Assembly: GCF_017312725.1 (NCBI RefSeq) | Contig: NZ_BOPO01000090.1 | Location: 1 to 64,000, forward strand | DNA length: 64,000 bases | Reading direction: 5' to 3' | From: Actinocatenispora comari | GTDB taxonomy: Bacteria > Actinomycetota > Actinomycetes > Mycobacteriales > Micromonosporaceae | Shown here: positions 17,301-63,325 of the stretch, in pieces | Numbering within the stretch: the stretch's first letter is position 1 | Layout: each line of letters opens with the position of its first letter | The notes under the pieces: model-generated | Databases searched by the model: none | Told to the model about the DNA's origin: nothing | What the model saw: only the letters and a program-made list of their open reading frames with translations | Program-made: the position numbers and the translations under genes

Positions 17301-17479
17301 CGGTCGCCGGCGCGGGCGCCGGTCCGGCCAGCGCAGCAGGTCGGGGGAGCGACAGGCGGCGGTTCGGTCGGGCCAGCAGGTCGTGGGCGTGGCGGGTGGC
17401 GGTTCGGTCGGGCCAGCAGGTCGCCGGAGCGGCAGGTCGCGGTTCGGTCAGGACAGCAGGTCGTGGGCGCGGCGGGCGG
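17301..17479. repeat. 40-bp tandem repeat overlapping the 3' end of the SWIM gene
   Basis: Copies at 17341-17380, 17381-17420 and 17421-17460, plus a partial copy at 17461-17479 and a weak one at 17301-17340, each end in CAGCAGG. The period is exactly 40 bp. The last part contains the real 3' end and stop codon of the SWIM-protein gene, so the array looks like duplication of that gene end into the intergenic space. Confidence 0.85.
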
Positions 17480-18266
17480 CGCGGGCGGCGAGCGCGGTCA
17501 GCGCACCGAGGTCGACGCCGTCGGTCGCGGGCAGCGATACCGGGGTGCCGGGCCCGGCCGGCGGCGGCAGCGGCGTGGGCAGCGGTGCGGGCAGCCGCGC
17601 GTACGCCTCGGCCGCCGCAACGGTGTCCACCATGGACGGTGCCGGGGCCGGTGCGGTGCCGCCGCGCCGGTCGCGCAGGGCGTCGAGTACGGCGGTGCGG
17701 GGCCGGCCGCGCAACAGCAGCAGCGCGAACGGATCGGTGTCGAGCAGGTCGGCGAGCACGTAGCACAGCGCCGCCGCGTGCTTGCACGGGACGGCCCGGT
17801 CCGGGCAGTTGCAGGAGACGGTCAGCTCGCGCGGCCCGGGCAGCAGCGGCAGCCCGGCCGCCGCCACATCGTCCACGATGGACGGTGGCAGCTCGCCGTC
17901 CAGCAGCGCCGCGGTGTGCGCGAGCTGGCCGCCGATCGCGTCCAGTACCCGGCCCCACCCGGCGTCGTCGAAGGTCGCCACCCGCACCTCCACCTGGTAC
18001 GGCGTGGGCCGGCTGCCGCGCACCCGCGCCGACGCGGTACCGGCGGCCACCACCGCGTCGCGCACCGCGCCGGACCGGGCGTACGTGCGGCCGCGCGGCA
18101 GCCGGTTCGGGTCGATCAGTGCCTGCTGCTGCAACGCATCCAGCCAGGCCCGGGACCACCAGGTCGCGCCGAACCGGCGTCGGGCTGCCGGCGGCACGTC
18201 CCCGATCGCGATCTCCTCGTCCGGCGCCGGGCCGGCCCCGCCGGTTCGGTGTGCTCGGTCGGTCAT
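17448..18266 (-). CDS. SWIM zinc-finger protein
   Basis: 272 residues with the SWIM motif C-x-C-x6-C-x-H (SCNCPDRAVPCKH) near residues 150-162. SWIM proteins paired with SNF2 helicases are widespread in actinobacteria and thought to act in DNA metabolism, with no defined reaction. The ATG at 18266 overlaps the helicase stop (ATGA). Two short segments, PSMVDTV and PSIVDDV, are coded around two copies of the GTCCA-N3-TGGAC dyad. Confidence 0.88.
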   Translation of the reverse strand: MTDRAHRTGGAGPAPDEEIAIGDVPPAARRRFGATWWSRAWLDALQQQALIDPNRLPRGRTYARSGAVRDAVVAAGTASARVRGSRPTPYQVEVRVATFDDAGWGRVLDAIGGQLAHTAALLDGELPPSIVDDVAAAGLPLLPGPRELTVSCNCPDRAVPCKHAAALCYVLADLLDTDPFALLLLRGRPRTAVLDALRDRRGGTAPAPAPSMVDTVAAAEAYARLPAPLPTPLPPPAGPGTPVSLPATDGVDLGALTALAARAARRAHDLLS

Positions 18267-26853: not shown

Positions 26854-28095
26854 ATGGGCGCGTTCTGGCATCCGTTCGCGGACATGGGCGACGTCGAGTC
26901 GGCGGGGGAGTTCGTGCTCTCCCGCGGCGAGGGCGTCTGGGTGTTCGACGAGAACGACCGCCGCTACCTGGACGCGACCGCCGGGCTGTGGTTCGCCAAC
27001 GTCGGCCACGGCCGGCGCGAGCTGGCCGAGGCCGCCGCCGACCAGCTGCGCACCCTCGCCGCCTACTCGTCGTTCGGCGACATGGCGGTGCGCACCACGA
27101 TCGAGGCGGCCGAACGGGTGGCGTCGCTCGCCCCGATGCCGAACGCGAAGGTCTTCTTCACCTCCGGCGGCTCCGACTCGGTGGACAGCGCGGCGAAGCT
27201 CGCCCGCCGGTACTGGCACGAGCTCGGGGCACCGGAACGCACGGTGCTCATCTCCCGGACCAACGCGTACCACGGGATGCACGTGGCCGGTACCGCGCTC
27301 GCCGGGATCCCGGGCAACCGGGCCGACTACGGCGAGCTGATGGCCGACACCGCGGTGGTCGACCGCGACTCGGTGGACGACCTGCGCGCCACCATCGAAC
27401 GGATCGGCCCCGGCCGGGTCGCCGCCTTCTTCTGCGAGCCGGTCATCGGCGCCGGCGGCGTGTACCCACCGGCCGAGGGCTACCTGGCCGCCGCCCGGCA
27501 GGTGTGCCGGGAGTACGGCGTGCTGTTCGTCGCCGACGAGGTGGTCACCGGGTTCGGCCGGATCGGCGGCGACTGGTTCGCGAGCACCCGGTTCCACCTC
27601 GAACCCGACCTGATCACCTGCGCCAAGGGCATCACCTCCGGGTACCTGCCGCTCGGCGCGGTGATCGCCGCCGAGCACGTCGCCGAGCCGTTCTTCCGGC
27701 CCGGCGCCGGGGTGTGGTGGCGCCACGGCTACACGTACTCGGGGCATCCGGCGGCGTGCGCGGTGGCGCTGCGCAACCTCGACCTGCTGGAGCGCGAGCA
27801 GCTGCTGTCCGAGGCGAAGCGGCTGGAGTCCACTCTGGCCAAGCAGCTCGGCCGGCTGACCGAGCACAAGCTCGTCGCCGAGGTACGGGCCGGCGTCGGC
27901 GCGGTCGCCGCCGTCCAGCTGACCGAGCCGGCGCTGGCGCCGCAACTGGTCAAGGCGCTGCGCAAGCAGGCGGTGGCCACCCGCGCGGTCGGCGCCGGCG
28001 GCATCCAGGTGTCCCCGGCGTTCGTGATGTCCGACGACGAGGTACGCCTGCTCGCCGACGGCATCTGGGCCGCCCTCACCGACCTCCGCCGCTGA
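26854..28095 (+). CDS. Class III (omega) aminotransferase
   Basis: 413 residues of the acetylornithine/omega-amino acid aminotransferase family. The PLP lysine lies in CAKGITSGYLPLGAV, with the upstream VADEVVTGFGR motif and GGSDSVDSAAKLARRYW for cofactor contacts. Enzymes of this type transfer amino groups from diamines, beta-alanine or similar to a keto acid; the substrate cannot be told. GAGGGGG precedes the ATG. Confidence 0.92.
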   Translation: MGAFWHPFADMGDVESAGEFVLSRGEGVWVFDENDRRYLDATAGLWFANVGHGRRELAEAAADQLRTLAAYSSFGDMAVRTTIEAAERVASLAPMPNAKVFFTSGGSDSVDSAAKLARRYWHELGAPERTVLISRTNAYHGMHVAGTALAGIPGNRADYGELMADTAVVDRDSVDDLRATIERIGPGRVAAFFCEPVIGAGGVYPPAEGYLAAARQVCREYGVLFVADEVVTGFGRIGGDWFASTRFHLEPDLITCAKGITSGYLPLGAVIAAEHVAEPFFRPGAGVWWRHGYTYSGHPAACAVALRNLDLLEREQLLSEAKRLESTLAKQLGRLTEHKLVAEVRAGVGAVAAVQLTEPALAPQLVKALRKQAVATRAVGAGGIQVSPAFVMSDDEVRLLADGIWAALTDLRR

Positions 28096-28147
28096 CCCGG
28101 CCGCCGCGCCGCCTCGGCGGAAGGCGGTCGGCGGTCGGCGCGGCGGG

Positions 28148-29764
28148 TCACTCCGCGCGGAGGTCCTCCAGCCGGGTACTGGCGCGCAGGAACGGCAGGC
28201 TCAGCAGCGCCGTGACCAGCACGGCCGCGATCGCGACCGCCACCACCAGCGTGGTCTCCCCCCACGGCACCGGGGTCGACACGTGCACGTGCAGCGCCGG
28301 CAGCGACACGTGCCGGAGCCCGTCGTCGTCCGGGCTCACGCACGGCTGGACGTAGTCGGAGCCGACGCAGTAGACACCGGCCGGCTGACTGACGTCGTAG
28401 TTCGGGAAGATGGCCCGGCCGGTGAACATGCCGACCAGCGCCGCGATGATCATGCCGGGCAGCGTCGTGATCAGGGTGTGCAGCACGAGGGCGGCGCCGA
28501 GCGTGCGCCGCGGTACCCCGGCGGCGGTCGCGGCGGCGAGCTGGCGGCGCTGCCCGACGATCCGCTCCACCAGCGCGATCAGCAGCGCCGCGGCGGCGAC
28601 CACCAGTACCACCCGCACGCCGATCTGCACGATGTCGAACGCGCGGACGTAGACCGGGTCGGTGAAGTCCTGTTGGTGGACTCCGGTGTACCGGGCGATC
28701 AGCCCGTCCATGGTCGCGTTCGCCCGCTTGGGCAGCAGGAACGCCTTCTGCAGGGCGGCGGCACCGGCGCCGAACAGAACCGCGGCGAACAGTACGGACA
28801 GGCTGCGGCCGCCGAGCCACGGGTCACTCGCGGCGCGACCGGCGGCAAGCAGCACGGCCGGCCGACGGGCGAGGCGACGCACCGCGCCACCGGTGAGGTG
28901 GCTGAGCCGGGCGGCCCCGAAGGCCAGCCCCGTCACGACGAGCAACGCGCCGGCGATGATCACCACGCCGAGGTAGGGACCGGAGACGAGGTCGAACGAG
29001 GTACTGCGGAGCGGGCCGGCCATCACCCGGCGGGCCAGCGGAACGTAACCGACCGACAACACGACGCCCGCCCCGAGCAGGACCACCGGCCAGGTCGCGG
29101 GCCGGCGGGACCGGGACCGCCGGGTCAGCCCGTGCGGGGCCGCCGCGACCCGGCGCAGGAGCAGTACGGACAGCGCGACGACGAGGACCGGCACCAGTGC
29201 GATCAGCACGACCAACGCCCACCACGGCGGCAGCACATCGGTCGGCAGCGGGCGCAGACCGTACCGGTTGGGTGCGTCGGCGACGAGCCGGCCGACGAAG
29301 TAGCCGAGCGCACCCAGCGCGGCGCCGGCGCACGCGGCGAGACCGCTCTCCGCGGCCACCACCCGGACCACGTCGGCCGGGGTGGCGCCACTCATCCGCA
29401 GCGCGGCGAGCCGGCGCTCCCGAGCCGGCGCGCCGAGCCGGGCACACTGCACCACGAACAGCAGCACCGGCACGGTGACCAGCAGCAGCCCGATGGACAG
29501 ACCCTTGCGCAGCCCGTACTGGGCGAGCAGCTCGCTGGTGTAGTGCGCGGTCAGGTAGGTGCTGTCGTTCGGGTTGTGGTCGACGGGGACCGACAGCACG
29601 GTACCGACGGCGAGCAGGCCGAGGGTGGCGGCCGCCGAGCCGAGCACCGTCAGCACGATCCGCACGGTGTCGGTCCGGGTACCGGCCCGGGCGAGGCGCA
29701 GCACGGTGTGCGCCGACATGCTGCCGGACGACCCGGCCCGTGGCGTCGCGGTGGCCGTGCTCAT
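28148..29764 (-). CDS. FtsX-like ABC permease
   Basis: 538 residues with a large number of membrane helices and FtsX-like fold: two FtsX-type blocks, the conserved ERRLAALRMSGATPADV cytoplasmic motif and a second RRQLAAATAAGVPRR repeat. It works with the ATPase just upstream (ATGA overlap) as a MacB/LolCDE- or BceAB-like exporter. PadR and the micro-ORF are in the same operon. Confidence 0.9.
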   Translation of the reverse strand: MSTATATPRAGSSGSMSAHTVLRLARAGTRTDTVRIVLTVLGSAAATLGLLAVGTVLSVPVDHNPNDSTYLTAHYTSELLAQYGLRKGLSIGLLLVTVPVLLFVVQCARLGAPARERRLAALRMSGATPADVVRVVAAESGLAACAGAALGALGYFVGRLVADAPNRYGLRPLPTDVLPPWWALVVLIALVPVLVVALSVLLLRRVAAAPHGLTRRSRSRRPATWPVVLLGAGVVLSVGYVPLARRVMAGPLRSTSFDLVSGPYLGVVIIAGALLVVTGLAFGAARLSHLTGGAVRRLARRPAVLLAAGRAASDPWLGGRSLSVLFAAVLFGAGAAALQKAFLLPKRANATMDGLIARYTGVHQQDFTDPVYVRAFDIVQIGVRVVLVVAAAALLIALVERIVGQRRQLAAATAAGVPRRTLGAALVLHTLITTLPGMIIAALVGMFTGRAIFPNYDVSQPAGVYCVGSDYVQPCVSPDDDGLRHVSLPALHVHVSTPVPWGETTLVVAVAIAAVLVTALLSLPFLRASTRLEDLRAE

Positions 29765-30477
29765 CGGTGGTCTCCCTGCTTGCCGGCGAGCGCCGACAGG
29801 TCCAGGCCGTTCGGGTCGAGGGCGCCGTCGCGCAGCGCGATCTCCCGGTGCGCGTACGCCGCGACCTTGCCGTCGTGGGTGACCAGCACGATCGTGGTGC
29901 CGTGCTCGGCCGACTCGCGGACCAGCTCGGTGAGCACCCGCTCGCCGGCGAGGCTGTCCAGCGCGCCGGTCGGCTCGTCGGCGAACAGCACGGCCGGGTC
30001 GGTGACCAGAGCGCGGGCCAGCGCCACCCGCTGCAGCTGGCCGCCGGACATCTCGCCGGGCAGCAACCCGGCGACGTCGTCGACGCCGAGGCGGTCCAGC
30101 CGCTCGTGCGCCGCCGCGTACGCCCCGCTGCGGCGCGCGCCGCCGAGCAGCAACGGCAGCGCGACGTTCTCCAGCGCGGACAGCTCGGCGACCAGCTGCC
30201 CGAACTGGAACAGCACCCCGAACTCGGTGCGCCGCAGCCGGGACCGTTCGGCCTCGCCGAGCGTGTCGATCCGGCGGCCGGCGTAGTGGACCTCGCCGGA
30301 GTCGGGGCGCAGGATGCCGGCGAGGCAGTGCAGCAGGCTGGACTTGCCGCACCCGCTCGGGCCGGTGACCGCGACGATCTCGCCGCGGTGCACGGTGACG
30401 TCGAGGCCGCGCAGCGCCGGCGTCGGCCCGTACGACAGGGCGAGCTGGCGGGCGGTCAGCAGCGGTTGGTCGGTCAT
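29761..30477 (-). CDS. ABC transporter ATP-binding protein (LolD/MacB type)
   Basis: 238 residues with Walker A GPSGCGKSS, signature MSGGQLQR, Walker B AVLFADEPTGALD and H-loop VTHD. It powers the FtsX-like permease encoded next (overlapping start). Its ATG overlaps the stop of the 39-residue micro-ORF and is preceded by GAGGAGG. Confidence 0.95.
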   Translation of the reverse strand: MTDQPLLTARQLALSYGPTPALRGLDVTVHRGEIVAVTGPSGCGKSSLLHCLAGILRPDSGEVHYAGRRIDTLGEAERSRLRRTEFGVLFQFGQLVAELSALENVALPLLLGGARRSGAYAAAHERLDRLGVDDVAGLLPGEMSGGQLQRVALARALVTDPAVLFADEPTGALDSLAGERVLTELVRESAEHGTTIVLVTHDGKVAAYAHREIALRDGALDPNGLDLSALAGKQGDHR

Positions 30478-30593
30478 GCGGCCTCCTCGGCGGTACGGAG
30501 TGCGTCGTCGGGTGTTCCCGCCTCCTCCGCGGAGGGGAGTGCGTCGTCGGATGTTTCCGCCTCCTCCGCGGAGGGGAGTGCGTCGTCGGTCAC
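30474..30593 (-). CDS. 39-residue repeat micro-ORF, coupled at both ends
   Basis: A GTG at 30593 overlaps the PadR stop (GTGA) and the ORF stop (TGA 30474-30476) overlaps the ATG of the ABC ATPase (ATGA). The 39 residues are three 13-residue units with core DDAL-[PR]-[ST]-AEEA, strongly acidic. AGGGAG lies upstream of the GTG, and each unit codes GAGGAGGC, the sequence that also serves as ATPase ribosome site. No known family; it may be a real acidic peptide or a translational relay. Not detected by its length alone. Confidence 0.55.
   Translation of the reverse strand: MTDDALPSAEEAETSDDALPSAEEAGTPDDALRTAEEAA
30481..30593 (-). repeat. 39-bp tandem repeat (about 2.9 units)
   Basis: The segment GGAGTGCGTCGTCGG (plus strand) begins at 30497, 30536 and 30575, exactly 39 bp apart; the first two copies are almost identical. 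Each unit carries a CTCCGCGGAG dyad or its variant and one GAGGAGG on the minus strand. Confidence 0.9.
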
Positions 30594-31144
30594 CGGTGGT
30601 CTCCCTCGTGCAGTTCGGCGCGCAGTGCGCCGAGGCGGGTCAGCGTGGTCTGCATCCAGGCGAGATCGGCGTCGAGGTGCCCGAGCAGGTAGTCGACCGC
30701 GACGACGTCGGACACGTTCGCCGCGGGGTCGGTCTTGGCCCGGGTCAGCTCGCGCATCCGGTCGGTGTGCGCGGCCCGCTGCGCGATCAGGTACGCCCGG
30801 GCGGTGGCGCCGTCGGAGCCGGTGCGCAGGGCGACGACCACCTTGGTGAACAGCGCCTCGGTGACGAACGGCGCGGGCCGCTCGACGGTGCCGAGCCAGC
30901 CGGCGAGCGAGTCGCGGCCGGCCCCGGTGATCTGGTAGCTGGTGCGTTCCGGGCCGCCGGCCGAGTCGTGCCCGGCCTCGGCGATCAGCTCGTCGCGCAC
31001 CATCCGGCCGAGCGTGGCGTACGCCTGGCCGAAGGCGAGTGGCCGCGCCCGGGGCAGCAGCGCGTCGTACGCCTGTTTGAGGTCGTAACCGTGCCTGGGG
31101 GTGCCGTCGGCCAGGATGCCGAGCAGGACGTGTACCGCGGACAT
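30590..31144 (-). CDS. PadR-family transcriptional regulator
   Basis: 184 residues: winged-helix N-terminus (LLGILADGTPRHGYDLKQAYD) and a C-terminal helical dimerisation region (PadR-like Vir_act_alpha_C). I take ATG 31144 because it directly follows the promoter dyad; a second in-frame ATG at 31159 lies inside the dyad. It is first in the PadR/micro-ORF/ABC operon and probably represses it until a ligand such as an antibiotic or phenolic binds. Confidence 0.9.
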   Translation of the reverse strand: MSAVHVLLGILADGTPRHGYDLKQAYDALLPRARPLAFGQAYATLGRMVRDELIAEAGHDSAGGPERTSYQITGAGRDSLAGWLGTVERPAPFVTEALFTKVVVALRTGSDGATARAYLIAQRAAHTDRMRELTRAKTDPAANVSDVVAVDYLLGHLDADLAWMQTTLTRLGALRAELHEGDHR

Positions 31145-31179
31145 GACTCCACTATTCACTCAGAGAATAGTGGAGTCAA
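31145..31179 (-). promoter_or_regulatory. PadR promoter with perfect 13-bp dyad operator; leaderless start
   Basis: GACTCCACTATTC (31145-31157) and GAATAGTGGAGTC (31165-31177) are perfect inverted repeats with 7 nt between them, ending exactly at the ATG. On the minus strand TTGACT (31174-31179) and AATAGT (31151-31156) are 17 nt apart and fit -35/-10, putting transcription start at or near the ATG. The repressor would cover both promoter elements. Confidence 0.75.
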
Positions 31180-31270
31180 GCCCGCGCTGTGAGATCTGCC
31201 GCGGACCGGCCCGGCCGCACCGCCCAGGCGGCAGGATCACAGGCGGAACGTACGAAGAGGGGGCTGCGCC

Positions 31271-32224
31271 ATGGAACTGGTGACCATCGACGACATCCGC
31301 GCCGCCGCGGAGATCCTCACCGGGGTCGTGGTGCACACGCCGCTGTTGCCGCAGCCGTGGTCCCAGCCCGGCCGGCAACTGTGGCTCAAGCCGGAGAACC
31401 TGCAGCCGGTCGGCGCGTTCAAGCTGCGCGGCGCGTACCACGCCATCGCGGTGCTGCCCGACGAGGCGCGCAAGGCCGGCGTCGTCACCCACTCGTCCGG
31501 CAACCACGGCCGTGCGGTCGCGTACGCCGCCGCGCTGTTCGGAGTGCCCGCCGTCGTCGTGATCCCGGACGTCGCGCCGCCGATCAAGATCGAGGCGGTC
31601 CGCGAACTCGGCGCCGAGGTGGTCCTGGTACCCGGCAGCGAACGGGCCGACGCCACCGAACGCATCGCCGCCGAGCGCGGGATGGCCGTGATCCCGCCGT
31701 TCGACCACCGGGACGTGATCGCCGGCCAGGGCACCGTCGGCCTGGAGATCCTCGCCGACGCCACCGACGCCGACGTGGTACTCGTGCAGGTCGGCGGCGG
31801 CGGCCTCGCCTCCGGCGTGAGTACCGCGATCAAGGCGCTGTCACCGCACACCGCGGTGTACGGGGTCGAGCCGGCCGTCGCGCCGGACGCCCGGGACTCG
31901 CTCGCCGCCGGCCGGCTGGTGCCCTACCCGGACGAGCAGCGGTACGCGACGATCGCGGACGGGATGCGCACCGGGCTGTCCGAGCTGACCCTCGCCCACC
32001 TGACCGCGCACCTGGACGGCATCGTCACCGTCGCCGAGGACGAGATCCGGGACGCGGTCGGAGTCCTCGCCCGCCAGGCGAACCTGGTCGCCGAACCCTC
32101 CGGCGCCACCACCCTCGCCGCCTACCTGCACCACGCCGACGAACTACCGGCCGGCCGCACCGTCGCCGTCGTCTCCGGCGGCAACCTCGACCCCACCCAA
32201 CTGGCCACCCTCGTCACCCCCTGA
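31271..32224 (+). CDS. Threonine/serine dehydratase-like PLP enzyme (fold type II)
   Basis: 317 residues with the PLP lysine in GAFKLRGAYHA, the SSGNHGRAVA substrate loop and the glycine-rich phosphate loop VGGGGLASG. It lacks the C-terminal ACT-like regulatory domain of biosynthetic IlvA, so a catabolic dehydratase or racemase of threonine/serine type is likely. The protein ends in a short region. Located alone between PadR (divergent) and the oligopeptidase (convergent). Confidence 0.9.
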   Translation: MELVTIDDIRAAAEILTGVVVHTPLLPQPWSQPGRQLWLKPENLQPVGAFKLRGAYHAIAVLPDEARKAGVVTHSSGNHGRAVAYAAALFGVPAVVVIPDVAPPIKIEAVRELGAEVVLVPGSERADATERIAAERGMAVIPPFDHRDVIAGQGTVGLEILADATDADVVLVQVGGGGLASGVSTAIKALSPHTAVYGVEPAVAPDARDSLAAGRLVPYPDEQRYATIADGMRTGLSELTLAHLTAHLDGIVTVAEDEIRDAVGVLARQANLVAEPSGATTLAAYLHHADELPAGRTVAVVSGGNLDPTQLATLVTP

Positions 32225-32379
32225 CCAGCCCGACGGGCCGCCGAACCCGCCAGGCGGCACCCGTCACGCCCGGCCCCGAAGCGAGTCAGGCGGCGTCAGG
32301 CGAGCAGCACCGGACCCCGCTGTTCCGATGCGGGCCAGGCGGCGTCCGGACCTCGTCTCCGCTCCCCCGGCGGGGGATG

Positions 32380-32405
32380 GTCAAGGGGGCGAAGGCCCCC
32401 TTGAC
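32380..32405. terminator. 11-bp perfect hairpin with GAAG loop
   Basis: GTCAAGGGGGC / GAAG / GCCCCCTTGAC is a perfect 11-bp stem. Its position after the dehydratase and facing the convergent oligopeptidase fits a terminator. Confidence 0.7.
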
Positions 32406-32418
32406 GGGGAAGGAGCGC

Positions 32419-32443
32419 GAGGAGGGGGCGAAGCCCTCTCCTC
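32419..32443. terminator. Second 11-bp hairpin with GAA loop
   Basis: GAGGAGGGGGC / GAA / GCCCTCTCCTC pairs along 11 positions with one G-T. It shares the GGGGGCGAA apex with the neighbouring hairpin, 14 nt away. Confidence 0.65.
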
Positions 32444-32575
32444 GCATCCCCCCACGCGGGCTCAGACCGCGAACAGAGGTGGCCTTCACCCGCCAGCCCC
32501 ACGCACATCAGACGCCCCCGCGGGCCCACCCGCACGAGGCGAACTGAGGGCTCTACGCCGGCGGCACCCCGGCAC

Positions 32576-34684
32576 TCACCGCGCCACGGTGGAGATGATC
32601 CAGGCGTAGCACCGGGCCCGGTCGTGCCAGGCCTGGTACCGGCCGGACCGGCCACCGTGCCCCGCTTCCATCTCCGTCCACAGCAACACGTCCGGCGCCC
32701 CGTTCGCGCGCAGCCTGGACACCCACTTGGCCGGCTCGTGGTAGAGCACCCGGGTGTCGTTGAGGCTGGTCTCGACGTAGATCGGTGGGTAGTTCGACGC
32801 GTCCGCGGCGACGTTCTCGTACGGCGAGTACGACTTCATGTAGCGGTAGACGTCGGCGTCGTGCAGCGGGTCGCCCCACTCGTCCCACTCGATGACCGTC
32901 AAGGGCAGCGACGGGTCGAGGATCGAGTTGAGCGCGTCGACGAACGGCACCGCCGCGTAGATCGCGCCGAACGCGTCGGGCGCCTCGTTGACCACCGCGC
33001 CCATCAGCAGCCCGCCGGCCGAACCGCCGAGCGCGGCGAGCCGCGGCGTCGAGGTCCAGCCGGCCTCGACCATCCGGCGGGCGCACGCGACGAAGTCGGT
33101 GAACGTGTTCTTCTTGTGCAGCATCTTGCCGTCTTCGTACCACCGGCGGCCCAGCTCACCGCCGCCGCGGATGTGCGCGATGGCGTACACGAAGCCTCTG
33201 TCCAGAAGGGACAGTCGGTCGATCTGGAAGCCGGGGTCGATGGAGATCTCGTACGAGCCGTAGCCGTACAGCAGGCACGGCGCGCTGCCGTCGCGCACCA
33301 GGTCCGTGCGCGCCACCACCGAGATCGGCACCTTCGTGCCGTCCGGCGCGGTCGCCCACTCGCGGAACTGCTCGTACTGGTCCGGGTCGTAGCCGCCGAG
33401 CACCGGCTGGCGCTTGCGCAGCACCAGGTGCCGCTGCGCCAGCTCGTAGTCGTACACCGAGCGCGGCGTCACCAGCGAGGCGTAGGTGAGCCGGAACGTA
33501 CCGGTGTCGTACTCCAGGTTGGCGTCCGGTTCGACCGTGTAGATCGGCTCGGTGAAGGCGATGTCGTGCGGCGTGCCGAGCGAGCCGTCGGCGCCCAGCG
33601 GGTACACCCGCAGGCCGGTGAGCACGTCGTGCCGGCGGTGCACGACGAGGTGGTCGGCGAACACGTCGAAGTCCAGCAGCCGGGTGTCGGCCGCGTGCTC
33701 GATCAGCGGGGTCCAGTCGGCGGGCGCGTCCACCGGCGCCGCGGCGAGCGCGAAGTTCTCCCCGCCGCCCACCTCGGAGTCGTTGTGCAGCACCAGGAAC
33801 CGGTCTTGTCCATTGTGGACGATCTGGTGGTCGACCTCGTACTCGACGTCCTGCTTGCGGGCCCGCACCAGTGTCGGCGTACCGGTCGGATCGTCCGCGG
33901 CGAGGTAGCGGACCTCGCTGGTGACCTTGCTGTGCGACTCGATCAGCAGGTACCGCTCGGAGCGGGTCAGCCCGACGCCGACCCAGAACCGCTCGTCCGG
34001 CTCCTGGTAGACCACCACGTCCTCGGCTGCCTTGGTACCGATCCGGTGCCGCCACACGGTGTCCGGCCGCCACGCGTCGTCGACGGTCAGGTAGAACAGG
34101 TGCGTCGAGTCGGCCGACCAGGCCGCGCCGTACGACGTGTTCGGCACCTCGTCGTCCAGCAGCTCGCCGCTGGGCAGGTCCTTGACCCGCAGGGTGAAGC
34201 GCTCGTCACCGGCGTAGTCGTCCGCGTAGGCCAGGTAGCGGCCGTCGGCGGTGACGGTGAAGGTACCGAGCGCGAAGAAGTCGTGACCGTCCGCGAGCTC
34301 GTTCTCGTCCAGCAGCACCTGCTCGCCGGGCACCGGGACGCCCGGCACGATCACCGGCGGCGCCGGGTCGTCGCCGGCCGCCACCCGGCACCGGATCGGG
34401 TACTGCTGACCCTCCACCGTGCGGGTGTAGTACCACCAGCCGTGCCGCCGGGCCGGCACCGACAGGTCGGTCTCCTGCACCCGGCTCTTGATCTCGGTGA
34501 AGATCTCGTCCCGCAGGCTCGCCTCGTCGGCGGTGGCCTGCTCGGTCCAGGCGTTCTCCGCGGTCAGGTACGCGATCGTGTCTGGATTGTCCTTCTCGGC
34601 CAACCAGGCGTACTCGTCCACCACCGTGTCGCCGTGCTGCGTCCGCTCGCTCGCCACCCGCTTCGCCGCCGGCGGCTTGCCCAT
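32576..34684 (-). CDS. S9 family oligopeptidase (oligopeptidase B/prolyl oligopeptidase type)
   Basis: About 702 residues: an N-terminal beta-propeller starting HGDTVVDEYAWLAEKDN and a C-terminal alpha/beta-hydrolase. The catalytic Ser is in LGGSAGGLLMG, Asp near NDTRV and His in MEAGHGGRSGR. YGSYE and HIRGGGELGRRWYEDGK are the usual family motifs. ATG 34684 is chosen as GCGAGGG lies 4-6 nt upstream; the ATG at 34699 would add five residues. It is a cytosolic peptidase cutting short peptides after basic or prolyl residues. Confidence 0.92.
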   Translation of the reverse strand: MGKPPAAKRVASERTQHGDTVVDEYAWLAEKDNPDTIAYLTAENAWTEQATADEASLRDEIFTEIKSRVQETDLSVPARRHGWWYYTRTVEGQQYPIRCRVAAGDDPAPPVIVPGVPVPGEQVLLDENELADGHDFFALGTFTVTADGRYLAYADDYAGDERFTLRVKDLPSGELLDDEVPNTSYGAAWSADSTHLFYLTVDDAWRPDTVWRHRIGTKAAEDVVVYQEPDERFWVGVGLTRSERYLLIESHSKVTSEVRYLAADDPTGTPTLVRARKQDVEYEVDHQIVHNGQDRFLVLHNDSEVGGGENFALAAAPVDAPADWTPLIEHAADTRLLDFDVFADHLVVHRRHDVLTGLRVYPLGADGSLGTPHDIAFTEPIYTVEPDANLEYDTGTFRLTYASLVTPRSVYDYELAQRHLVLRKRQPVLGGYDPDQYEQFREWATAPDGTKVPISVVARTDLVRDGSAPCLLYGYGSYEISIDPGFQIDRLSLLDRGFVYAIAHIRGGGELGRRWYEDGKMLHKKNTFTDFVACARRMVEAGWTSTPRLAALGGSAGGLLMGAVVNEAPDAFGAIYAAVPFVDALNSILDPSLPLTVIEWDEWGDPLHDADVYRYMKSYSPYENVAADASNYPPIYVETSLNDTRVLYHEPAKWVSRLRANGAPDVLLWTEMEAGHGGRSGRYQAWHDRARCYAWIISTVAR

Positions 34685-46716: not shown

Positions 46717-48690
46717 GTGTCCGCGAACCCGCCACCCCGCCCACCCGGCGACGGAACCGGCCGATACCAGTACGATCCGGACTGGTTCGGCTCGCCCGCC
46801 GGCCCCCCTCGCGACGGGGATGCCGAGGACGATCCGCGGTACCGGCCGGCGGATCCATCGCCGTCGATGGCCGACGGGACGTCGACCGTCGACTGGTTCG
46901 GCGCCGCGCCCGGTGCGGCCGACCCCGGCGCCGGCCGGTTCGCCGGCGGCCAGCCCGGCCCGGATGTGCCGTACTTCGGTGCCACCCCGCCGGACCTGCC
47001 GGCCTCGCCGCGCGGTGCGGAGCCGGACCCGTTCGCCGACCTGCGGGCGCCCGGCCGGTACGCTCCCGAACCGCCCGGCCCCCGCCAGCCTGGCCATTAC
47101 GCTGACCCTGTGGGTCGCGACGGTAACCCTGAGTCGCCGGCGTCCGGTCGGGACGGCTGGCCGACGGCCGGCGGAGACCGGTTCGCCCCACCCGCCGACG
47201 ATGCCGGGCCGGCCACCGCCGCCCAGCCCCGGTACCGCGACGAGCCGGACCCGGCCGGCGCCGCGCCACCCCGCTACACCAACGAGCCCGACCGCTACCC
47301 CGCCGGACCGGACCGCTACGCCGGCGGATCCGACCACCCCGCCGGCGGATCCGACCGCTACGCCGGCGGTGTGGACCGTGCTGCCGGCGGGCCCGGGCAC
47401 TACGCCGGCGAGCCGGACGCGGACCGGTACGACGACCGGTGGTCCGGCGAACCGGACCGGTACCAGGCGCCGGCCGACCGGTACGACGCGGCGCCCTCCG
47501 GGCCCGGCTCGGGCGAGCCGTACGGCGCCGGGTCGCATCCGGCCGACCGCTCTGCCGCGCCCGCTGACGACGCCGACCGGTACGCCGTGCCGGCCGACCG
47601 CGCCGGTGCGCAGCCGGACCGGTACGACCCGCGTCCCGGCCCGGATCCGTACCAGCCGACCGACCCGTACCGAGCCGACCCGTACGACGCCGACCGGTAC
47701 GACGCCGACCGGTACGGAGCCGACCGGTACGGAGCCGACCAGGACCAAGCCGGCCCACATCAAGCGGCCGATCCGTACGGCCCGCCGCCGGCAGCGGAAC
47801 CGGCCGACGACCCGTACGGCGCCCGGACCCCGGCGGGCGCCGCCGCCGCGCCGGGGTCGCCGGAGCCGGTACCGCCGGACCGGGCCGCCGCGGCGGTCAA
47901 CGCGGTGCTGGCGGTGGTGGTGTTCGGGGCATTGATCGCGGCCGGCCGGCTCGGCCCGCCGGTGGATCTCGCCGCGTGCGCGCTGGTGCAGGTCGCGCTG
48001 GTGCTGAGCTGGGTGTTCGGCACCCGCCGGCCGGGACCGGTGGTGGTTGCGGTGGTCGCGCTCGGCGCCGGCTTCGTCGCCGACTGGTTCGCGCAGTACG
48101 GCGCGGCCGTCTCGCTCGCGCCGTTCGGGTACGTGCTGGCCGGTGGGCTGCTCGCCGCGGCCGCCGGGCAGCTGGCCCGGGGCAGCGGGCGGACCCGGAT
48201 CACCGACTCGCTGGCGTCCACCATGTTCGCGGTCACCTGCACGGTCGCGGTGCCGGCGGTGGTGATGCTGGCGCGGCTCGACCAGGGGCCGTCCGCGGTG
48301 GTACCGCTGCTGGGCGCCGCCGGTGCCGCGGTGGTCCTGGCCCGGCTGGTCGACCTGGCCTGGCACGCGCCGCGGGCCAGCGCGCCGGTGGCCCGCGGGG
48401 TGATCGGGGTGGTCGCCGGCGGGGTGGTCGCCGGTACCGTCGTCGGTTTCGTCGCCGGCCAGCTGGCCGACCTGCCCGGGCTGCACGCCGCGGTGGCCGG
48501 GCTGCTGATGGGGCTGGCCGCGGTGCTGGCCGACGTCGGCGTCAGCTTCGGCAGCTCCGGCCGGGAGCTGTCCGGTGAGCCGGCACACCGGTGGCCGGCC
48601 CGGTTCGTCCTGGGCCCGGCGGTGGCCGCGGCGCTCGTCGCTCCGGTCGCGTTCGTCCTCGGCTGGTTGGTGCTGCTGCCACCGCAGTGA
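46717..48690 (+). CDS. Large membrane protein with Asp-Arg-Tyr-rich N-terminal repeats
   Basis: 657 residues. The first 370 are low-complexity (Pro, Gly, Asp, Arg, Tyr) with many DRY units such as [16 protein letters not shown]; the last 280 form about eight membrane helices with short loops. Not a family I recognise. The N-terminal half is likely disordered and cytoplasmic. GTG 46717 follows a CTGGCANNNT element by 6 nt. A later in-frame start is possible but has no better signal. Confidence 0.7.
47690..47745 (+). repeat. 15-bp tandem repeat coding DRY-[DG]-A units
   Basis: Units GCCGACCGGTACGGA or close variants occur in tandem within the coding sequence of the DRY-rich protein, keeping frame. 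Confidence 0.7.
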
Positions 48691-62431: not shown

Positions 62432-63325
62432 ATGGCTGGACTGCGGGACGTCGGCGACTTCATTCGCGAGCAGCGGCGCAGCGCGCAGATCTCGCTGCGG
62501 CAGCTCGCGAAGCAGACCGGCGTCAGCAATCCGTACCTCAGCCAGATCGAGCGGGGCCTGCGCAAGCCGAGCGCCGAGGTGCTGCAGCAGATCGCGAACG
62601 CGCTGCGCGTCTCGACCCCGGTGATGTACCTGCGCGCCGGCCTGCTCGAACACTCCGACGGCCAGGGTGTGCTGACCGCGATCGCCGCCGACGAGGTGCT
62701 CACGGCTCGGCAGAAGCAGTCCCTGGCCGAGATCTACGAGGCGTTCCGCCGGGAGAACCTGCGGTACGCGAAGGCCGACGCGGCGTCGCCCGACGGCGGC
62801 GCAGCCGACGCCGAACCGTCCGGGGGCGAGGCGTCCGACGCCGAGCCGTCCGAGGTCGGTACGACACCAGAGCCGCACGACCCGGGGGTGGGTGCGGCGG
62901 CCGGGGCCGGTGCGAAACCGGCCCCGGCCGCCGAGGCACCAGCCGTCGGCACGTCCGTGACGGCAGCTGGCGTGACCGCCGAGGCGGGAGCAGGTGGCAC
63001 GACCGCCGGGGCGGCCAGCCGCAGGACCGCGCCGGCGGCCGATCCGATCGACGCAGGGCGGGCGACCGCGGTGCCGATGGCGCGCACCGCGGCCAGCGCG
63101 GCCCGGCGGGCGGCGAGCAAGGCCGCGCAACGGGCCGCCGACGGTGCTGCCCGGGCCGCCGGCAGCCCGGCGGCGAAGGCCGCCCAGCGTTCGGCCGGCA
63201 AGGCGGCGCAACGGGCCGCGGACACCGCGGCCGGCGCGGCACAACGGGCCGCGGACACCGCGGCCGGCAAGGCAGTTCGATCCGCGGTCGGCAAGCGGGG
63301 GCGCGGCCGACCGGATGACCAGTGA
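62432..63325 (+). CDS. XRE-family regulator with Ala/Lys-rich tail (Rv0474-like)
   Basis: 297 residues: an N-terminal HTH (LRQLAKQTGVSNPYLSQIER) in the first 60, a linker with acidic Ser/Asp/Glu, and an Ala/Arg/Lys-rich C-terminus with 11-residue units (AAQRAADTAAG twice). In M. tuberculosis the XRE protein Rv0474 also precedes hbhA. Leaderless start; the dyad at its promoter suggests self-regulation. Confidence 0.88.
   Translation: MAGLRDVGDFIREQRRSAQISLRQLAKQTGVSNPYLSQIERGLRKPSAEVLQQIANALRVSTPVMYLRAGLLEHSDGQGVLTAIAADEVLTARQKQSLAEIYEAFRRENLRYAKADAASPDGGAADAEPSGGEASDAEPSEVGTTPEPHDPGVGAAAGAGAKPAPAAEAPAVGTSVTAAGVTAEAGAGGTTAGAASRRTAPAADPIDAGRATAVPMARTAASAARRAASKAAQRAADGAARAAGSPAAKAAQRSAGKAAQRAADTAAGAAQRAADTAAGKAVRSAVGKRGRGRPDDQ

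Follow-up and report, generated by a model that had tools for sequence, protein, structure and literature searches.

A 39-codon micro-ORF between padR and an ABC-transporter gene of Actinocatenispora comari is best read as a MIRU-like repeat insertion

The DNA analysed here (the window) is a stretch of 64,000 nucleotides from the genome of A. comari (G000). Between a PadR-family regulator gene and an ABC transporter ATPase gene it contains a micro-ORF that very probably arose by insertion of a dispersed repeat into a pre-existing NTGA stop/start overlap; the repeat would consist of self-coupling units that hand ribosomes over from one gene to the next, and would have spread near-neutrally. The element itself is real, and insertion of a MIRU-like repeat accounts for it best. 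Its dispersal, and its presence in some species and absence in others, are well supported. Comparisons were made with three further genomes of the genus (G001-G003) and with 350 other genomes of the family.

The micro-ORF and its junction

The frame MTDDALPSAEEAETSDDALPSAEEAGTPDDALRTAEEAA (30593-30474, minus strand) consists of GTG, 38 codons and TGA. It had been predicted to be threaded between its neighbours by overlapping codons, and inspection of the sequence confirmed an open frame and both overlaps, all on the minus strand. At the upstream joint, GTGA, the micro-ORF GTG (30593-30591) lies over the PadR TGA (30592-30590); at the downstream joint, ATGA, the micro-ORF TGA (30476-30474) lies over the ABC ATG (30477-30475). 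Coordinates of the features are given in Table 1.

The array was described by Tandem Repeats Finder with a period of 39, 2.8 copies, 91% matches and a score of 176. The prediction of a 39-bp unit that stays in frame through every copy holds for the frame and was refined for the length: the start-to-start distance is 116 bp (39+39+38), and the final unit is therefore 38 bp long. GAGGAGG, a strong SD-like motif, is present in all three units as predicted; a start codon follows it only in the last, the other two of the three motifs having none. An anti-SD duplex energy of -10.9 kcal/mol was obtained for the 16 nt that precede ATGA at the start of the ABC gene. When a 48-unit profile (see below), which contains the three window units, was run on the window, only these units rose above background (E 1e-11, 1e-10 and 1.5e-8; next best 0.001).

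The PadR gene was taken as the longest frame, from GTG at 31159, with an alternative ATG at 31144. The ATPase stop is itself overlapped by the ATG of the next gene as ATGA (29764-29761). The inverted repeat at the PadR start, a candidate PadR operator, overlaps the sole sigma-70-like site found in 30400-31300, and its inner part is also present in the G003 relative. Other repeats located in the window by Tandem Repeats Finder were long tandem repeats with 15- to 63-bp periods (47195-47756), a 33-bp repeat (63203-63268; two copies, 96% matches) and an 80-bp repeat (17312-17481; 2.1 copies, 82%).

Table 1. Features at the PadR-ATPase junction, in window coordinates
Feature	Position	Strand	Basis
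Micro-ORF, 39 codons, three fused units, -4 nt overlap at each end	30474..30593	-	sequence, ORF list
Repeat unit 1, 39 bp, begins GTGA within PadR stop	30555..30593	-	repeat finding and sequence
Repeat unit 2, 39 bp, in frame, no internal start or stop	30516..30554	-	repeat finding and sequence
Repeat unit 3, 38 bp, followed by ATGA of ABC gene	30478..30515	-	repeat finding and sequence
GAGGAGG of unit 1, no start codon after it in array	30560..30566	-	sequence
GAGGAGG of unit 2, no start codon after it in array	30521..30527	-	sequence
GAGGAGG, SD-like, 4 nt 5' of ABC ATG	30482..30488	-	sequence
PadR-family regulator, gene 5' of junction	30590..31159	-	Pfam PF03551, E 7.4e-12
ABC transporter ATPase, gene 3' of junction	29761..30477	-	Pfam PF00005, E 1.7e-32
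Next operon gene, putative ABC permease by position alone	28148..29764	-	ORF list
Inverted repeat GACTCCACTATTC / GAATAGTGGAGTC at PadR start, candidate operon operator	31145..31177		sequence

Distribution and arrangement of the repeat

A junction search followed by an eight-unit profile located the window unit elsewhere in G000, on other contigs; its recurrence in this genome at unrelated junctions makes the window repeat more than a chance one. With the eight-unit profile the best matches had E values of 1.5e-14 in G002, 5.5e-13 in G003 and just 1.5e-4 in G001. The best G001 match reached 5.9e-8 with the 48-unit profile, one unit of which is from G001; as that profile includes units of the genus, its E values there are partly so by construction. 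Copy counts per genome based on profiles are to be read as 'at least'. The exact core CGACGYNNTN5CCGCGGAGG was present in 12, 8, 14 and 13 copies in G000, G001, G002 and G003, respectively. Among the 350 genomes outside the genus it occurred 0-3 times per genome, 117 of them having at least one copy; GC-rich DNA shows a certain background of this core. As a spacing control, a core one base shorter was used, which matched in five of 354 genomes and not in G000; its match in G001 (L204) resembles a true copy. In G000 the repeat occupies eleven sites (ten in the 20-array set described below, plus L013).

Profile matches outside the genus with E between 1e-3 and 1e-5 are mostly background. Single junction copies in other genera were read by eye in a few genomes (G064, G005, G045, G128 and G099). 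The G064 copy lies behind a semialdehyde dehydrogenase gene (Pfam) and the G005 copy reads as the same junction, which we take to be argC-argJ. Tandem copies of about 39 bp were also observed within genes or at gene ends (L199 and L208 in G001, L195 in G008 and L088 in G003). L202 and L204 are likewise copies away from junctions. A plasmid-borne repeat was dropped as a candidate, a plasmid collection giving no match to the repeat at E 0.01.

The arrangement of the units was analysed in 20 arrays (50 units). Single or decayed units at junctions or leaders (L013, L076, L078, L079 and L089) were left out, as were L081, L082 and L088, which are not at junctions, and the weak matches L080, L083 and L090, which were taken as chance. 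Tandem arrays at junctions hold one to five units, and the 30 unit spacings were 38 bp (19), 39 bp (10) or 35 bp (one). Each unit begins with an NTGA, comprising its start and the upstream stop, and continues through about 20-25 nt, an SD-like GCGGAGG(AGG) and a few bases to the next NTGA. A stop/start chain needs a start-to-start length of 3k-4, with which 38 and 35 bp comply. Each 38-bp copy therefore forms a frame of 13 codons, with a 4-nt overlap between its stop and the start that follows, so that any number of copies keeps the outer genes chained by overlaps. Every one of the 20 spacings of 38 or 35 bp ends in NTGA; at the 39-bp spacings (the window, L067, L070, L075 and L087) there is no internal stop and the frame runs on.

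Downstream, 18 of the 20 arrays end in an NTGA that overlaps the start of the next gene; of the other two, L010 is fused to the downstream N-terminus and L073 has the joint ATGG. The downstream protein had a Pfam match in 12 arrays, and the other eight starts were read from the sequence or from an orthologue. On the upstream side, the stop of the preceding gene supplies the first NTGA in 11/20; otherwise there is no clear overlapping gene (six arrays), the array is fused to the upstream C-terminus (L071 and L077) or the overlap is with a partial unit (L087). The leader copies L013 and L078 lack a start codon of their own. Anti-SD duplex energies of -8 kcal/mol or lower were calculated for the 16 nt before 34 of 40 unit-ending NTGA (two of the 40, in L087, are an in-frame ATG followed by A and not stops), compared with 2.1% of 2000 random 16-mers drawn from these loci. 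An SD ahead of the first NTGA is part of the host junction; in seven of the 18 arrays having one it was weak (-1.3 to -4.6 kcal/mol), and in these the first mini-ORF would rely on the ribosome coming from the gene upstream. The genes joined are unrelated (Pfam): an oligopeptide ABC ATPase pair, a BPD_transp_2 permease pair, kinase-regulator, IclR-permease, solute-binding protein-permease, PAPS reductase-CbiX and others.

At orthologous junctions with retained flanks the repeat is present in some species of the genus and absent in others. The oppB-oppC junction (names by Pfam) has 116 bp in G000 and none in G002 (flanks 99%/98%) or G003. The kinase-regulator junction has 38 bp (one unit) in G000, 184 bp (five units) in G002 and none in G003, and the oligopeptide ATPase pair 114 bp in G000, 91 bp in G002 and none in G003. 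At the GFO/IDH-TIM-barrel junction 158 bp were found in G003, none in G002 or G001 and a decayed piece in G000. Comparisons at L066, L069, L077 and L085 were less clean owing to decayed copies or different gene ends. The trehalose-phosphatase leader carries four, two and one units in G000, G002 and G003, and the BPD_transp_2 pair three units in G000 versus one in G002; all copy-number comparisons are between species.

The micro-ORF had been put forward as an element of PadR-ABC operons, to be checked in close relatives. In the closest, G003 (PadR 89.7% and ATPase 84.8% identical), the element is absent from the orthologous junction and the direct ATGA overlap of the two genes is retained; the ATPase N-terminus differs from that of the window, being 12 codons longer. 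None of 39 PadR loci from relatives (28 from the family, G003 and ten named records) had a profile match at the junction, and the best match in these loci (E 0.0069) was off the junction. On reading by eye, the PadR stop lies in an NTGA that could serve as the ATPase start in 29 of the 39; the others have different overlaps, a gap or a junction that is not resolvable (L099, with no adjacent ATPase, and L103, with the stop position misplaced). With 0/39 at these junctions and the same unit at many unrelated ones, assignment to PadR-ABC operons was rejected.

Eight copies or sets of copies lie within one frame on both sides, and all eight frames are open; the host genes carry Pfam matches. A PLP aminotransferase of G002 (36 bp), a class I aminoacyl-tRNA synthetase of G001 (39 bp) and a methylmalonyl-CoA mutase of G001 (36 bp) each have three orthologues without the copy. 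The NAD kinase of G002 has 117 bp that are missing in G000 and G003, G001 being different at this position. A methyltransferase holds a copy in G002 and a decayed set in G000. In a PolX-like protein of G001 the copy is in a variable region; this protein is shorter than its counterparts in the other three genomes, which precludes reading an insertion. The remaining hosts are the leucyl-tRNA synthetase of G008, from another genus, and a LacI-type regulator of G001 that contains the one sense copy, the other seven of the eight being antisense. Six of these seven share a reading frame that gives a stretch rich in Ala/Ser/Gly (like ASAAESASAG), and the NAD kinase copy is read in another. Sense copies may be rarer inside genes because the SD would come along.

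Proposed mechanism and competing explanations

In the mechanism that we propose, a short dispersed repeat would enter a 4-nt overlap (NTGA) already present between padR and the ABC gene, each insert supplying its own start, SD-like site and stop. The mini-ORFs would be translated and their translation coupled: ribosomes leaving PadR would traverse the micro-ORF and initiate again on the ATPase gene, aided by the last SD, so the ribosome could probably keep moving to the next gene. Judged from the layout, a coupling relay is the likeliest mode of action. The translational relay of the original prediction thus stands as far as the layout fits a ribosome hand-over, translation itself being presumed from the sequence. 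The element would spread and expand, probably as a near-neutral passenger, since the following gene would be expressed almost as well with the insert as without it.

No mobilising enzyme was found for the repeat. The Y1 transposase family (Y1_Tnp) is present in G000 and G002 only (two of the four genus species), and mobilization of the REP/RAYT type was rejected, as Y1_Tnp is missing from G001 and G003, which also carry the repeat. A structured RNA unit was likewise dropped, with no consensus base pairs found among 48 units and no Rfam match in a scan of 28000-33000; the single-strand fold of the array (z -1.95; 7/200 shuffles at least as stable) is suggestive only.

A selected, repeat-tunable coupler, as originally suggested, would have the unit number set the ATPase-to-PadR ratio and array slippage act as a switch. 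Such a coupler is compatible with insertion, and we regard it as improbable. The part of the suggestion that stood is that copy number varies at the same junction between species (1 versus 5, 4/2/1 and 3 versus 1). Similarity between units is also higher within an array (mean 0.91, 50 pairs) than across arrays (0.74, 1175 pairs), as local expansion predicts, and a relation between length and expression is reported, in the available part of the source, for an array of tandem repeats upstream of M. tuberculosis fpg (PMC2734929). No sign of selection was seen, however; the element occurs at many unrelated junctions and at none of the PadR-ABC junctions of the 39 relatives, and a change of the 39-bp count in the fused window frame leaves start, stop and SD as before.

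It is very unlikely that the repeat carries a promoter or regulator site driving the ATPase gene independently. MIRUs at the senX3-regX3 junction are reported to drive regX3 independently (PMC4213456, from the part of the article available), but the array contains no sigma-70-like site, the only one in 30400-31300 being at the PadR start, and the intragenic copies are antisense in seven cases of eight.

An acidic micro-peptide with a role, made from the repeat, had also been considered; the frame is open and an acidic motif recurs in the units, yet only a slight probability attaches to it. The mean entropies at codon positions 1, 2 and 3 were 0.60, 0.47 and 0.32 bits for 18 representative units (one first unit from 17 of the 20 arrays, plus L076, with L068, L072 and L074 left out), which include several orthologous pairs and hence are not independent. 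Variation is highest at position 1 and lowest at position 3, the reverse of what a conserved peptide would show, although GC pressure also lowers the third-position value. As variation is not concentrated at third codon positions, a conserved peptide is unlikely and this candidate was rejected. In addition, the antisense intragenic copies of the same DNA mostly encode the Ala/Ser/Gly stretch, and relatives do not retain the peptide at this locus. The least probable explanation of all is slippage that is purely local, in which the native start region was duplicated in tandem without any relation to the other sites; it would explain the high identity within arrays, but the core is common to non-homologous junctions and intragenic copies and the empty G003 site holds no unit.

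Comparison with known elements and implications

Repeat insertion into the overlap, the reading preferred here, has a close parallel in the MIRUs. In the parts available of the three sources, these are apparently mobile, insert at start codons and contain an internal ORF coupled at -4 nt, with little effect on genes (PMC12548453, a 2025 review); they are short, dispersed, tandem repeats of 40-100 bp whose copy number varies between isolates (PMC2734929), with unit lengths of 77 and 53 bp (PMC4213456). The original remark that no such element was known therefore gives way, MIRUs following the same logic (PMC12548453). The two published lengths satisfy 3k-4, as do 38 and 35 bp here. The present repeat is also dispersed (8-14 exact cores per genus genome), is inserted at start codons (repeat-free orthologous NTGA sites at four junctions and at PadR-ABC), has an internal ORF at -4 nt to the next gene (18/20 arrays downstream and 11/20 also upstream) and differs in tandem copy number, here between species. 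It differs from MIRUs in its unit of 38/39 bp, below the 40-100 bp given for them (PMC2734929), and in its genus; the likeness is one of layout. In-frame, mostly antisense copies in enzyme genes, as found here, are not described for MIRUs in the available portions of these articles.

Rickettsia palindromic elements (RPEs) are about 150 bp long, palindromic and located in frame in unrelated coding genes (PMC10969869, available in part). The in-frame insertions found here (36, 39, 36 and 117 bp, compared with orthologues without them) resemble them; the units here, however, are 36-39 bp with no consensus pairing among 48 units, and coupling at gene junctions is not described for RPEs in the part of that source available. 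Coupling uORFs, short ORFs with a stop/start overlap before a gene, deliver the ribosome to the next gene (PMC12548453, as far as the source was available); what sets the present case apart is that its short ORF is a repeat with copies at many genes. The literature searched contained no further description of an element of this kind.

A second dispersed family, ATGAGYGAGCGNNAGCGAGCGARTCA, was observed in the same genus, with 14, 9, 8 and 10 exact copies in G000-G003 (loci L282-L289, L252:680 and L257:668), and was not seen in the window. It forms five tandem pairs with a spacing of 77 or 80 bp, also 3k-4, and an SD-like AAGGAGG often stands before the next ATGA. At the oppB-oppC junction a 77-bp insert of this family is present in G001, versus the 38-bp family in G000. 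It resembles the 77-bp MIRU class in length.

Translation-compatible mobile micro-repeats may form a general class, a proposal to which we give even chances. It would comprise sense 3k-4 cassettes of start, SD and stop at NTGA and antisense linkers of 12-13 Ala/Ser/Gly codons tolerated by housekeeping enzymes, with stop/start overlaps as hot spots across actinomycetes; the last point is suggested because at least two families of seemingly different sequence (38 bp and 77/80 bp) obey the rule in one genus and share a junction in different species.

If the insertion reading is true, an actinomycete genus other than the mycobacteria would share the MIRU way of life, its units being about half the length of the 77-bp MIRU and clean empty sites occurring in sister species, under a simple length rule: 3k-4 at junctions and 3k in genes. 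It would become testable whether overlaps are landing sites for insertions that do no harm, what copies the repeats and how unit number relates to operon output. It would also suggest that inserted repeats, rather than genes, account for some of the micro-ORFs predicted between operon genes.
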